A stretch of 64,000 nt of DNA from Gemmatimonadota bacterium (GTDB taxonomy: Bacteria; Gemmatimonadota; Gemmatimonadetes; Longimicrobiales; Gaopeijiaceae): positions 1 through 64,000 of the forward strand of contig VGVR01000007.1 of NCBI GenBank assembly GCA_016873995.1, in the 5' to 3' direction. This document shows positions 58,142 to 64,000 of the stretch, piece by piece (the first letter of the stretch is position 1; each line of letters begins with the position of its first letter). A program made the position numbers and the translations under genes. The notes beneath the pieces were generated by a model, which was given only the letters and a program-made list of their open reading frames with translations, was not told where the DNA came from and did no database searches.

Positions 58142-60463
58142 CTAGAACCGCAGCAGGCGGCTGATCTTGAGCACGAACGCCCGGTTCTCGAGTTCGGGGA
58201 TCCCGCTACCCAGCGTGGATCGCTCGTCGGTGTAAACCGCGAAGAACTCGCTTCCTGGGGCATACTCCCAGCGGAACCGGAGATTCGTGCTGAACGCGTC
58301 GGCGTCCGTGTCGTACTGCACGAGCCCGCCGACGAACATGAGCGGCGTGAAGGCGAGGTCGGCGCGCACGCCGACGACGGTCGCATTGAAATCGCCGGCG
58401 GGAAGGCGCACGTCGTTGTAGGAGATGGAGGGGAGGAGCGAGAGCCGATTGTGGAGCGCGATTCTGCCGCGTTGGAACTGTACCGTGGTGATCGTGCCGT
58501 CGTAGAATTCGCCGATCTCCAGGGATGCCTGACCCGACGCGCGCCGCTGGCCGCCGAACGTGTACTGCAGGGTGGCGCTCTTGAAGTCGTAGTCGCCCGC
58601 AGGAACCGACACGGTGCTCGAGACCCGGAGGGGCCTTTCGAGCCGCTCGACGTTCGACGAGCCACGCAGACCGACCATGTCGCTGTTCTCGAACTCGACG
58701 TTGAGGCCGCCGCTCCAGACTTCCGTTTCGAGGGCGCCGAGATCGAGGCTCTCGATGCGCTCGTAGCCGGCCTCCACCGTGAACTGGCGGATCCACTCGA
58801 TGTTGCGAGGCCGCGGGCTGTAGCGCGTCGAGCCCGAGTACCTGCGGAAGTCGTCCCTCCGCACCAGGCCGATCTCCGGGTTGAAGTCGTCCGACACCAC
58901 GAGGTACTGTCCGTTCAAGCCATACGTGTCGCCGTCGTAACTGGCCCGCGCCGTGTAGGCGTCCTTCACGCTCGCGACCCCCTCCGTGCGCGCCTGTGCA
59001 TAGAAGCCCCCAAAGCCAACGGTTTGGCCGAACCCGAAGTTCGCGTCGACGCCATACGCTTGGTTGCTGCCGCAGCCCGTGAGCGATCGCGAGCGATTGG
59101 TGAAGAGGGCGCCGATGTTGCTGCGGCGCAGAACGTCCGACTTGACTCTCACGACGGTGAAGTTGGTGGCAGGCGCCATATCCGCGACGCGATCGGTCTG
59201 GACGTTCATCGCGCCGAATGCGAGCCGTCCTTCCTTTCCGGTCACGCGAGCCCCAGCCAGGATCGGAACTGCTTCACTGCCGATGAGCCCGATCCGTCGT
59301 GAGTAGAACATCGTGGGCATCCCGCGGCCCCCCCCCCCCCCCCCGCCGCCACCACCACCGCCGCCTCGTCCACCACCACCGCCTGTGCCCCGGCCGAAAT
59401 CGAATGTCCCCTGTCCCTCGAGGAAGAATTCCCGCTTCTCCGGGAAGGACAGGCTGAAGCGACTCAGGTTGACCTGGCGCTCGTCCACCTCCACTTGAGC
59501 GAAGTCGGTGTTGTAGGTGAGGTCGGCGGTGATGTTCGCCGTGATGCCGAGCTTGAAGTCGACGCCCAGGTCGCCATCGACATCGTTCGAGATCCTCGGG
59601 ACTCGCGTGAGGTTGCTGGTGAGGCTGGACGTCGCGTACGGCTTGATCTCGATGTTCTTGCCGGCAGGGGGTAGATCCAGCCCAGTCAGCGTCGCCGCAG
59701 CGGAGACGCGATTGATGCTCTGCCTGCCTCCCGTCGAGGCGGGCACGAACGCGACGTGAGAGTACTCGTTCCTGCGTCGAATGGCACGGCGGATCTGGAT
59801 GCCCCAGGTATGGTCCGATCCGGACACGTAGCGAATCGACTTGAATGGGATGGCCATCTCCACGACCCAGCCCCCGTCGAACTGGCCCCCGCGCACGGAC
59901 CACACGGGGTTCCAGTCGTTGTTGGGAGCTTCGTCGGTGACCCATTGGTCGTTACGCGCGCCGAGCCAGTTCGCGTACATGTTGAAGCCGTTGCGACCGT
60001 CGTGGAACGTGTCGAACAGCGCGCCGAAGAAGTCGTTCTCCCTGAGGCCGTCCGTATCGCGGCGCATCTCGTTGGCGACCCACCCTTCGGGGCCTGCCGA
60101 GTCCCAGCAGCGGCAGGACAGATAGAGGTTCTCTTCGTCGAACATCACCCATGCCTCGGTGCGCTCGGTGATGGGCTGACCCTCGTCGGGAATGGTCTGG
60201 AGGAAGCGGTCGATGGGCAGGTTGTCTCGATAGACCGCCTCGTCGAGCGCGCCGTCCAGCCGCAACGGTTCGCTCAGCCGAATCGCGCGGATGGTGGCGC
60301 GCCCGTCTTCCGTGCCCGCGAGCGAGGCCGGTGCCAACGGGGGAGGCGGGTTCTGTCCGGCATCCGAGGATAGGCTCGCCTGGGCGGCGAGCGCCGGCGG
60401 AAGTGCCAAAGCGAGCGCGAACGCCGAGCCCAGCCAGCAAACGGTTCCGTTTCTCATTCGCAT
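58142..60463 (-). CDS. DUF5916 outer-membrane protein with CBM9-like N-terminal domain and poly-Gly tract
   Basis: 773 aa. Signal peptide ending ALAAQ; a CBM9-like domain (IRLSEPLRLDGALDEAVYRD, TEAWVMFDEENLYLSCRCWD, GGWVVEMAIPFKSIRY) and then a DUF5916 barrel (LSRFSLSFPEKREFFLEGQG, MFYSRRIGLIG) ending KISRLLRF, a terminal-Phe strand typical of BAM substrates. A Gly/Arg-rich loop at about 360-385 contains six Gly codons written as 18 consecutive G. Surface-exposed location of that loop is inferred. Divergent from the sigma-factor gene. Confidence 0.88.
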   Translation of the reverse strand: MRMRNGTVCWLGSAFALALALPPALAAQASLSSDAGQNPPPPLAPASLAGTEDGRATIRAIRLSEPLRLDGALDEAVYRDNLPIDRFLQTIPDEGQPITERTEAWVMFDEENLYLSCRCWDSAGPEGWVANEMRRDTDGLRENDFFGALFDTFHDGRNGFNMYANWLGARNDQWVTDEAPNNDWNPVWSVRGGQFDGGWVVEMAIPFKSIRYVSGSDHTWGIQIRRAIRRRNEYSHVAFVPASTGGRQSINRVSAAATLTGLDLPPAGKNIEIKPYATSSLTSNLTRVPRISNDVDGDLGVDFKLGITANITADLTYNTDFAQVEVDERQVNLSRFSLSFPEKREFFLEGQGTFDFGRGTGGGGGRGGGGGGGGGGGGGRGMPTMFYSRRIGLIGSEAVPILAGARVTGKEGRLAFGAMNVQTDRVADMAPATNFTVVRVKSDVLRRSNIGALFTNRSRSLTGCGSNQAYGVDANFGFGQTVGFGGFYAQARTEGVASVKDAYTARASYDGDTYGLNGQYLVVSDDFNPEIGLVRRDDFRRYSGSTRYSPRPRNIEWIRQFTVEAGYERIESLDLGALETEVWSGGLNVEFENSDMVGLRGSSNVERLERPLRVSSTVSVPAGDYDFKSATLQYTFGGQRRASGQASLEIGEFYDGTITTVQFQRGRIALHNRLSLLPSISYNDVRLPAGDFNATVVGVRADLAFTPLMFVGGLVQYDTDADAFSTNLRFRWEYAPGSEFFAVYTDERSTLGSGIPELENRAFVLKISRLLRF
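59327..59344 (-). repeat. 18-nt homopolymer G tract inside the DUF5916 gene
   Basis: Eighteen C on the plus strand, read as six GGG codons (374-379) in phase. A one-base length change would truncate the protein just before the barrel. This is a typical size for a slipped-strand contingency tract. Confidence 0.9.
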
Positions 60464-60610
60464 CTAGACACGCTGCCGCACCATCCGGTTGGGGGCCGGG
60501 CAGCCAGAGGGTGGTGGCGACTCGCAGTCCGCGCCCTGTGTGCGTTTCCGGCGCTGGTTCGTCATATCTAACGAGAGGGTTCCAGAAAGCTGCGCCTCGG
60601 GCACCAACTC

Positions 60611-61119
60611 GTGAAGACCGATTGGGCGGAAGTCTACCGCGCCACCTACGGCGATCTCGTCCGTTACCTGTCATGGGGGTCGGCGACGAGGACCACGCGC
60701 ACGACCTCGCACAGGAGGCGTTCGCCCGTGTGCTCGACCGAGACCCGACCAACGCGCGCGCGCTGATCTTCCGGGTCGCGGTCAACCTCGCGCGCGACGA
60801 GGCCCGCACGGTGGTACGCCGCAAGCGACACCTGACGCTCCTACGCGTCGAGGCGGACCTGCAAGCGGAAGCGGGCGCCTCACCCGCTGAGCAGGCGCAG
60901 CGGTCGGAGGCCGTGGAACGGCTCCGCCGAGCTCTCGACAAACTCGCGGAGCGGGATCGCGAAGTGCTTCTGCTGTGGGATGCGGGTCTCTCCTACGCGG
61001 ACATCGCCGATCAGACCGGTTTGGCGCTGGGTGGCATCGCAACGACGCTCGTGAGGGCCAAGAAGAAACTCGTGGAAGCGTACGACTCGCTGGAGATGAA
61101 CGATGCAGCATTTGGATGA
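60611..61119 (+). pseudogene. ECF-type RNA polymerase sigma factor, frameshifted in region 2
   Basis: GTG 60611 starts TDWAEVYRATYGDLVRYL, the beginning of region 2. At about 60671 the frame shifts and continues VGDEDHAHDLAQEAFARVL through region 4 (LAERDREVLLLWDAGLSYADIA). Alignment to the expected RYL-xxx-VxDE spacing shows one base missing near a G5 run. A shorter product from ATG 60673 (148 aa) would lack region 2.1. It overlaps the anti-sigma gene by 17 bp, so they are one operon. Error or true inactivation. Confidence 0.8.
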
Positions 61120-62356
61120 AGCAACCCTGCAGGCGTGGGTGGACCGAGCGCGTTTTGGGCTCGACCCGTCCAAGCTCGCGCAGATCGAGCAGCACCTCGC
61201 CGTGTGCGGCAGCTGCGCTTCCCAGGCCGAGGCTCTCGGCGCTCTCGGCCTACGGGCGCATGCCCTACTCGCGATCGGGCGCGAGCGGCACGCTCCTCGC
61301 GTGACCTACGAGGACGTGGTCCGGCGCGCCCACGGGTCGCGCACGCGTATGCGCAAGATCAAGGCGACGTGGGCAGCGAGTGTGGTAGTTGCGCTCGGGC
61401 TGGGATGGGTGTCGAACAACCTCTATCGTGCAGGCTTCTCACCGGACGCGGCGGGCGCCGCGGGCACTTCGTCGTTGGCCACCTCGACGCAGTCGACGAC
61501 GGTGCTCGGTGGGTCGCCGGGCGCACCAAGCCCGGGGGCAGCGTCGGTCGCAGGCACCGCCGCGTCCGACCCGAGCAGGCTGCGCTCAGCTGCGGATGTA
61601 GCGTCGAACGTCGCGTCCGCGTCGGGCAATCCCAACCAAGATACGTCCGCGGGCGCAGCAGGGTCGACAGCGTCGAGGGTCGATCCCGACGGTGTCGTCG
61701 TGCGCGGATTCGTGGCGGACGAGGGGGGGAGGCCGGTCCCGAGCGCCGAAGTGTACGTGGCCGAGCTCGAGGTCGGGGTGCTCACCCAGCAGAACGGACG
61801 GTACGATCTGCAGCTGCTGAGCGAACCAGATTCCTTCGAGTTGACCGTGCAGCGCATCGGCTTCAGGCAGCAGACGCGCGCGCTCAACAGCGGGGAAGGT
61901 GACTACATCGCCGCCGACTTCCGTCTGCGGGAGGAGGCCCTCGCGCTGGACGAGATCATCGTCACCGGGGAAGCAGACGGCACGCAGAGGCGGTCGAGCG
62001 GCAACAGGACGGCCGCCTTGCGTGCCGCTCCCTTCGTGTGGCGCCCCGCGCCCTCGATCGCCGCGGAGGGCTACGTGGGGTCCGACCTGTGGACGATGCC
62101 CGAGATGGACGTCTTGGCGCTCGAGGTCGCGTACGGCGACAACCCGAACGAGACGCATGTTGCTCGTGTTCGTCAGGCCTTGGGCGGCGGCAGGACTCTG
62201 ACGCTCATCCAGGGCCGTACCGACGGGCGGCGCACGCGGTGGCCGATCCAGTCGGCAGGTGCGGTGGTGTCGACATGGCGCGGCGAAATGTTGATCACGG
62301 CAACCGCTGCCGTTTCCGCGGACTCGCTACGGGTGTTGCTCAGCCAGTTGCGGTAG
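61103..62356 (+). CDS. zinc-finger anti-sigma factor fused to a carboxypeptidase-regulatory-like domain and TonB-box-like motif
   Basis: 417 aa. A ZAS-type anti-sigma domain with HLAVCGSC (H31, C35, C38) holds the sigma factor in the cytoplasm. One membrane helix lies at about 89-105, then a Ser/Ala/Gly-rich periplasmic linker (111-192). Residues 198-275 form a CarboxypepD_reg-like domain (VVVRGFVADEGGRPVPSAEV, NGRYDLQLL), then LDEIIVTG (282-289), as at the N-terminus of SusC/TonB receptors, and a C-terminal domain of unknown fold. This suggests sensing of or competition with TonB-dependent receptors (inference). Confidence 0.8.
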   Translation: MQHLDEATLQAWVDRARFGLDPSKLAQIEQHLAVCGSCASQAEALGALGLRAHALLAIGRERHAPRVTYEDVVRRAHGSRTRMRKIKATWAASVVVALGLGWVSNNLYRAGFSPDAAGAAGTSSLATSTQSTTVLGGSPGAPSPGAASVAGTAASDPSRLRSAADVASNVASASGNPNQDTSAGAAGSTASRVDPDGVVVRGFVADEGGRPVPSAEVYVAELEVGVLTQQNGRYDLQLLSEPDSFELTVQRIGFRQQTRALNSGEGDYIAADFRLREEALALDEIIVTGEADGTQRRSSGNRTAALRAAPFVWRPAPSIAAEGYVGSDLWTMPEMDVLALEVAYGDNPNETHVARVRQALGGGRTLTLIQGRTDGRRTRWPIQSAGAVVSTWRGEMLITATAAVSADSLRVLLSQLR

Positions 62357-62440: not shown

Positions 62441-64000
62441 CTACTGAAGCGCCGCGAGGGCCTCGTCGAGGGTCCCCTCTAAGTACGCCACATTGTGGAA
62501 GGCCTCCCACGCGATCGCTTGGGCCACGTAGCGCGCGTCACCTGCTGTCCGACCGACCACGACGACCCGGGTGTTGTGGTCTTCCATGGGCAAGCGCCCG
62601 TGGTCTTTCGCCAAACGGATCTCGCCGGCGTCCCTCGTGTCGAGGACGCCGCTTCGCGGGATGTTCACGGCATCTGGTAGACTCCCGGATGCGAAGGCGT
62701 CGGGCTCTCGTGCGTCGATGACCACCGCGGTACGGTCTCTCGTCAGTACGTAGCGTAGGCCGTCGGGCTCGATCACCGAGATGCCGCCGAAGGCGCGCCA
62801 GACAGGTATGCCGAGTTGATAGCGCCGTACGTTCGTGTGCCCGGCGGCCCGGAGCTCGGACGCCAGGCGGGTGCTCCTGGGGCAGTACGGTCCGTTGCAG
62901 TACAGCACCAGCGGCCGCGCGAGGTCGCCGCCGACGAGTCGGCTCACTTCGGCCACGTCCGAGACGTACATGGACATGGGCATGCCGGGCCGCGCGGCCA
63001 CGTTGAGCGCGCCCGCGACGTGGCCGATCGCGTACTCGAGGTGCGGTCGCGCGTCGAGAATGATGGCGGAGTCGTTTGCCAGGAGTTGCTGAAGCTCCTC
63101 GGTCGTGATCTCGTCACTCGCATCCGCGATGTCGACACGGGCACCGCCAATTCTTTCCACTCCCCAGAGGCCCAGGGCGATCGCGGCGACTGCCCACGGG
63201 GCTGCCTGCACGAGGGTCGACCGTCTGCGACTCCCCAGCCGTGGCGCGGCGACATCGGTCGCGGTGCCTTGCTCGGACAGCGGCGCGCCCCACGGTTCGG
63301 ACGCCCCGCGCACGAGCGCTTCACCGAACTTGGCCGCTGTGGCGTATCGATCCGCGGGGAGTCGCGCCAACGCCTTCAGCACCGCCCGATCCAGCGCCAC
63401 GGGCGCGCTCTCTCGCAGCTGACGAATCTCCTTGGGGTGTTCGGTGAGGATCCGCGCCACCACCGACTGAGCAGTCCGACCCGTGAACGGAGGTTTTCCT
63501 GTCAGCATCTCGTAGACGACGCAGCCCAGCGAGTAGACGTCGGTGCGGGCGTCGAGCCCCCGCTCCCCGGTCGCCTGTTCGGGGCTCATGTAGTACGGCG
63601 TTCCCATCGATAGACCGGCCTTGGTCAGTAGATTGTCGGCGATCGTGCTCAACGCGAGCGCGATCCCGAAGTCCGTCACCACGGCCTGGCCGTCCTGAAA
63701 GAGAACGTTTTCCGGCTTCATGTCCCGGTGGATGACACCGTGGCGATGGGCGTAGTCCAACGCGCTCGCAACCGCGCGTCCGATATCGACGGCTTCCTCG
63801 ACCGGAAGCTGCTTTTCCCGTTGGAGCCGTGCGCGGAGCGTCTCGCCCTTCACGTAGGGCATGGTGTAGTAGATCAGCCCGTCGGCCTCGCCCGAATCGA
63901 AGAGCGGTAGGATGTTCGGATGCTGGAGCGCCGCCGTGACGCGGATCTCTGCGAGGAGACGCTCGGCGCCCACGACGGCGCCCAGCTCTGGGCGAAGGAC
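62441..64000 (-). CDS. Ser/Thr protein kinase with membrane helix and two rhodanese domains (5' end outside window)
   Basis: 519 visible residues; the glycine loop and catalytic Lys lie beyond the right edge. Numbering from GTG 63973: HRDMKPENV at 82-90, DFG at 101, activation segment to SPEQA, so an active Hanks-type kinase. A helix follows at about 254-273, then rhodanese domain 1 (288-397) with the active-site Cys in VLYCNGPYC (C359), and rhodanese domain 2 (about 405-508), where the loop reads VVVGRTAGDA without Cys. Topology puts the rhodaneses in the periplasm. Such a C-terminal sensor replaces the usual PASTA or TPR domains. Confidence 0.88.
   Translation of the reverse strand, partial: VLRPELGAVVGAERLLAEIRVTAALQHPNILPLFDSGEADGLIYYTMPYVKGETLRARLQREKQLPVEEAVDIGRAVASALDYAHRHGVIHRDMKPENVLFQDGQAVVTDFGIALALSTIADNLLTKAGLSMGTPYYMSPEQATGERGLDARTDVYSLGCVVYEMLTGKPPFTGRTAQSVVARILTEHPKEIRQLRESAPVALDRAVLKALARLPADRYATAAKFGEALVRGASEPWGAPLSEQGTATDVAAPRLGSRRRSTLVQAAPWAVAAIALGLWGVERIGGARVDIADASDEITTEELQQLLANDSAIILDARPHLEYAIGHVAGALNVAARPGMPMSMYVSDVAEVSRLVGGDLARPLVLYCNGPYCPRSTRLASELRAAGHTNVRRYQLGIPVWRAFGGISVIEPDGLRYVLTRDRTAVVIDAREPDAFASGSLPDAVNIPRSGVLDTRDAGEIRLAKDHGRLPMEDHNTRVVVVGRTAGDARYVAQAIAWEAFHNVAYLEGTLDEALAALQ

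Follow-up and report, generated by a model that had tools for sequence, protein, structure and literature searches.

A Ser/Thr kinase fused to a putatively periplasmic rhodanese tandem in Gemmatimonadota

PASTA kinases are membrane Ser/Thr kinases (STKs) with outside sensors, and they act by dimerization (PMC6213207); in the open-access text of the same review, which covers bacterial Hanks kinases, rhodanese does not appear. Among two-domain rhodanese enzymes, the type to which MPST belongs has an inactive N-terminal and an active C-terminal domain, with active loops of the form Cx4R/T or Cx5R (PMC10135228). Sensing through a sulfur bridge between two cysteines has a precedent in SoxR and SqrR (PMC10451225). 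No mention of a kinase–rhodanese fusion was found in the open-access literature, in agreement with an earlier note on this DNA, whose author knew of no characterized kinase of such a design. To our knowledge, the signals of Gemmatimonadota Ser/Thr kinases are almost all unknown.

Gene and domain layout

The DNA analyzed is a stretch of 64,000 nucleotides (the window, G000:C7:1-64000). The earlier note had described a single frame carrying a kinase, a hydrophobic helix, and two rhodanese domains near its end. This frame is real and open throughout on the minus strand, but the window edge cuts it off, with 45 N-terminal residues missing. The full gene is complement(62441..64135), with a GTG start 135 bases past the window edge at contig position 64135 (L008:8136) and AAGGAGGT as the SD just upstream. 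It encodes a 564-amino acid protein composed of a Hanks kinase (amino acids 17–262), a helix (308–326), a rhodanese domain (344–448), and a second rhodanese domain (~468–558). The features are as follows.

62441..64000, minus strand: window part of the kinase–transmembrane helix–rhodanese–rhodanese gene, which runs on to contig position 64135
63350..64000, minus strand: Hanks Ser/Thr kinase domain, residues 17–262, the first 29 beyond the window edge (Pfam PF00069, 2.3e-48; PF07714, 3.9e-29)
63707..63730, minus strand: catalytic loop HRDMKPEN, residues 136–143 (sequence motif)
63665..63673, minus strand: DFG motif, residues 155–157 (sequence motif)
63158..63214, minus strand: predicted single transmembrane helix LVQAAPWAVAAIALGLWGV, residues 308–326 (hydropathy and charge)
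62792..63106, minus strand: rhodanese domain 1, cysteine-bearing, residues 344–448 (genome scan, 5e-16; Pfam; AF2 model)
62882..62899, minus strand: two-cysteine active loop CNGPYC with C413 and C418 (both invariant in alignment A1)
62462..62734, minus strand: rhodanese domain 2, without cysteine, residues ~468–558 (genome scan, 3e-11; Pfam; AF2 model)
62570..62593, minus strand: near-invariant LPMEDHNT of the cysteine-less domain, residues 515–522 (alignment; E replaced by Q in genomes G073 and G149)

The Pfam Pkinase match (2.3e-48) spans residues 17–237. The Hanks-type motif set is complete in the full protein (Gly loop, VALK lysine, HRDxKPEN, DFG, and SPE), with the P-loop (GVGGMATV) and the VALK lysine lying in the 45 residues beyond the window edge. 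PF00581 matches in two stretches (3.7e-28, 98 bits against a cut-off of 22), and both rhodanese matches of the genome scan are far above chance. By these sequence tests, the protein is a Hanks kinase and contains rhodanese domains. The AF2 model (pLDDT 80, pTM 0.63) matches rhodanese structures; a sequence search against solved structures gave weak rhodanese matches only.

The cysteine that the earlier note had numbered C359 is Cys413 of the full protein. The same loop has a second cysteine, C418, absent from that note, and the two are the sole cysteines outside the membrane; the only other one in the protein, C205, is inside the kinase. Domain 2, which reads VVVVGRTAGD, has no such cysteine, as first described. 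Loop residues C81, N82, G83, P84, and C86 (alignment numbering) are fully invariant among the 17 sequences aligned, so that both paired cysteines are retained throughout. The loop reads CNGPYCPRS in the window protein and mostly CNGP[FYH]CGKS in relatives.

The helix is preceded by GSRRR, with a net charge of +3 on its N-terminal and −2 on its C-terminal side. This charge rule is less clear in two of the other fused proteins described below (G149 and G283), in which positive charges flank the helix on both sides. The helix occupies the position of the signal peptide in standalone relatives, right before the EVSTEEL that starts domain 1, and this placement together with the charge difference argues for rhodanese domains lying outside. 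The predicted layout is thus one helix with the sensor half outside, based on hydropathy, positive-inside charge, and exported relatives. The earlier note had called the rhodanese part apparently periplasmic. Fused homologues, exported standalone relatives, and the charge pattern support that placement, which we consider very likely.

At 60331-62356 on the plus strand, an ECF sigma factor gene precedes an anti-sigma-like gene. The anti-sigma-like protein has a zf-HC2-like N-terminus (below cut-off) and a CarboxypepD_reg C-terminal half, which ends in LDEIIVTGEA and resembles the N-terminus of a TonB-dependent receptor. Two DUF5916 proteins, encoded at 58142-60463 (minus strand) and L008:8400-10667 (plus strand), flank this sigma/anti-sigma/kinase block; the second has a CBM9-like domain, and its gene is divergent from the kinase gene.

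Recurrence, origin, and movement of the fusion

The rhodanese tandem occurs in 8 of 395 Gemmatimonadota genomes and is fused to a kinase in four of them: the window genome, G073, G149, and G283. The G073 copy is an open frame of 583 amino acids (64% identity to the window protein, 571 positions), and the G149 copy a frame of 579 amino acids (62% identity, 558 positions). The G283 copy (L064, G283:C108) is 67% identical over the C-terminal 387 positions; it has an in-frame TAG at 1912–1914 in the activation loop, after GTP and before YMSPEQ, which is either genuine or an error of the assembly, the frame being otherwise open. A second set of 394 genomes from the class, most of them shared with the first, added only a standalone copy in G057 that was already known.

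The window genome is a draft of 97 contigs, and two adjacent genes could in principle have been joined by misassembly or a frameshift, the weakness to which the earlier note had pointed in its own proposal. This explanation was rejected, with a probability that we consider close to nil, because fused homologues with the same architecture in three other Gemmatimonadota genomes span the junction, at 62–67% identity over the aligned length.

Outside Gemmatimonadota, no fusion was found in the 396 Acidobacteriota and 350 Chloroflexota genomes sampled, which contain one and three tandem proteins, respectively, all standalone. None was found either among the loci from a scan of 84,980 genomes by short patterns, which miss some divergent copies (e.g., those with LPMQDHNT).

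In the rhodanese tree, the four fused copies form one clade (100/98 support), whose sister is the standalone copy of G057. G073, G149, and G283 belong to three different families. Their rhodanese parts have nucleotide identities of ~0.78–0.94 and their helix regions 0.72–0.83, compared with 0.71 for RpoB (two of the three genomes), 0.71–0.80 for RecA, and 0.78–0.80 for GroEL; likewise, rhodanese dS is ~0.28–0.52, as against 0.59–1.16 for housekeeping genes. This greater similarity makes transfer of the helix–rhodanese half between families the most likely explanation. With a dS of ~1, the window copy is older. The G073 fusion gene has a GC3 of 0.85, whereas its called neighbors have 0.55–0.78, which points to import.

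The kinase half appears to have a separate history in G149. It is only ~0.6–0.79 identical to those of G073 and G283 and does not group with them in the kinase tree, which is poorly resolved and served only to support this exchange. The G149 gene (G149:C247; L056, L063) is a mosaic, with identity rising at about residue 290–305, shortly ahead of the helix. These sequences are most simply explained by recombination of the sensor half onto a different member of the ~74 related G149 kinases, or by overwriting of the kinase half. A similar identity step occurs between G073 and G283 at about residue 150–170. Between fused copies, dN/dS is well below 1 for both rhodanese domains.

The architecture and reality of the fusion and its mobility are well supported, as is a single origin, with one apparent capture of the tandem behind the helix of a Gemmatimonadota kinase. 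The cassette would have come from a standalone exported tandem and would later have moved as a module.

Standalone relatives and the proposed sensor

The scan of 84,980 species genomes returned 23 loci, most of them standalone proteins of ~260–310 amino acids at 45–67% identity. Standalone copies are ~44–67% identical over both domains (L033–L049, L058, L060, L061), and the loci come from records labeled Gemmatimonadota, Acidobacteriota, Pseudomonadota, Chloroflexota, Verrucomicrobiota, Ignavibacteriota, Poribacteria, Rokubacteria, cyanobacteria, and others. Among the 20 standalone copies examined, all but one (L060, where it is weak) show a clear hydrophobic segment for export at the N-terminus, at least five have a lipobox, and 19 keep both loop cysteines. 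A tandem from a Rokubacteria MAG (L048) lacks the whole cysteine loop, in frame. Given these export signals, the tandem family most likely functions beyond the cytoplasmic membrane. As a standalone protein, predicted to be exported, the tandem is rare and spread across many phyla; no published name for it was found.

Standalone tandems in unrelated genomes adjoin a BTAD-AAA-TPR regulator (L042), a cyclase-TPR protein (L045), and a PAS histidine kinase-receiver protein (L041), and in a small sample two lie downstream of groEL (L043, L068). No relative was found on viral contigs. Among the plasmid matches listed there is one tandem relative, on Microvirga pMVF16-2; nearly all the others listed cover domain 1 only at <40% identity and are mostly ArsR-rhodanese regulators.

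A sensor role of the rhodanese tandem is probable, and sulfane sulfur or redox state is our leading guess for the signal. The specific proposal of a single-pass inner-membrane Hanks Ser/Thr kinase, with a periplasmic tandem-rhodanese sensor gated by sulfane sulfur or oxidation at Cys413/Cys418, seems to us about evenly balanced between right and wrong. The cysteine pair would take up sulfane sulfur (persulfide, polysulfide, or thiosulfate) or become oxidized, producing a persulfide, a disulfide, or a sulfur bridge in the loop. Cysteine-less domain 2 would read the state of the loop through the interface between the domains. Transmitted through the one helix, the change of state would alter dimerization, upon which the kinase domains in the cytoplasm would trans-autophosphorylate and pass the signal on. 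The sensing role, the ligand, and the dimerization are what we infer here. Less likely, in our view, is the composite account, in which sulfane sulfur or the thiol redox state of the periplasm is sensed directly by the kinase via the two-cysteine loop, domain 2 transduces, and the sensor half travels between Gemmatimonadota families and is re-fitted to different kinases.

Several observations run counter to a sensor kinase. The activation loop of one fused copy in four (G283) contains a stop, no gene neighborhood is shared across the fused copies, no sulfur-metabolism genes were seen beside any of them, and the mobility of the cassette would fit a hitch-hiking enzyme as well. The periplasmic tandem might be mainly a sulfurtransferase, with the kinase anchoring or co-regulating it and receiving no signal. 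The standalone homologues, which are exported with an intact cysteine loop and are not consistently beside kinases, fit such an enzyme, as do charged residues, both basic and acidic, that are invariant near the loop and suggest an active site. Nevertheless, the fusion to a complete kinase is under purifying selection across families, and the fusion was kept where the kinase was exchanged. The layout of kinase, helix, and outer domain is also frequent in Gemmatimonadota membrane kinases: the kinase belongs to a large set in this phylum, with up to dozens of Ser/Thr kinases per genome, and paralogs in the same genomes often have a hydrophobic helix followed by other outer regions (judged by eye). 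We consider a tethered enzyme rather unlikely.

The sensor may instead recognize a periplasmic protein through the rhodanese pair, with the cysteines being structural. The best-conserved features of the alignment are the loop Y-C-N-G-P-x-C and the RLPMEDHNTR of domain 2, and the latter, the longest invariant stretch, sits in the domain without cysteine; rhodanese domains without activity are considered to mediate interactions (PMC10135228). A pure docking surface, however, does not need a C-N-G-P-x-C loop that is invariant in 17 sequences, and no conserved neighboring gene offers a candidate partner, which makes a protein ligand improbable in our estimation.

The nearest regulatory relatives bear on the choice of ligand. 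In a related subtype (~35% identity), ArsR DNA-binding domains are fused to one rhodanese that has the CxGPYC loop, and this type of loop thus serves in regulators elsewhere. ArsR-like proteins with a C-terminal rhodanese and CRGP[YFH]C are common among same-order relatives (L012–L019, L022, L028, L029); Pfam confirmed the ArsR-rhodanese composition of L012. This kinship with the ArsR/SmtB family raises the alternative that the ligand of the loop is arsenate, chromate, or a heavy metal, not sulfane sulfur. The ArsR family, however, includes the sulfane-sulfur sensors SqrR and SoxR (PMC10451225), so membership in it is no indication of a metal ligand, and no metal-resistance genes were recognized beside the copies, whose neighbors were annotated in part. 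We regard an oxyanion or metal ligand as distinctly improbable.

For the proposed sulfane-sulfur or redox sensor, the enzyme-like active loop of the outside domain provides a concrete class of ligand that can be tested by two point mutations. Control of the kinase by sulfane sulfur, if true, would link extracellular sulfur chemistry to Hanks-kinase signaling. The probable movement of the sensor half and exchange of the kinase domain show how such receptors may diversify.

Comparison with known systems

The window protein shares with the PASTA kinases PknB/PrkC and with PknD, which has a β-propeller, a cytoplasmic kinase, a juxtamembrane linker, one helix, and an outside domain, but its putative sensor is a tandem rhodanese. 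The PASTA-kinase model NF033483 (NCBIfam) matches the kinase part only (residues 11–280), at 301.9 bits against a cut-off of 450, and Pfam has no match to PASTA domains in the protein.

As in TST, MPST, and SseA, there are two rhodanese domains with a cysteine in one only. However, compared with TST and MPST the order is reversed, the cysteine loop being confined to the N-terminal domain in aligned members, and the loop is C-x4-C, not Cx4R/T or Cx5R. The window protein is also membrane-anchored by prediction, fused to a kinase, and modeled with a different arrangement of its domains: the modeled pair superposes on TST structures over one domain only (TM ~0.38, rmsd above 12). Of the sulfurtransferase architecture that the earlier note had recognized, the pairing of an active with an inactive domain stands; the domain order, the CNGPxC loop, and the superposition of the pair do not agree with it. 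The window protein is not of the TST/MPST type in the strict sense, nor is it a PASTA kinase.

The standalone exported tandems have both domains, the CNGPxC loop, and mostly MEDHNT, as in the cassette, and represent its direct ancestor type; they have no kinase, and a signal peptide or lipoprotein signal takes the place of the kinase helix. The ArsR/SmtB-rhodanese fusions likewise have a CxGPYC rhodanese within a regulator, but these are DNA-binding proteins without a membrane helix and with one rhodanese. SqrR and SoxR, in which two cysteines are bridged by sulfur atoms, resemble the proposed chemistry, but they are transcriptional repressors with neither a rhodanese nor a kinase.
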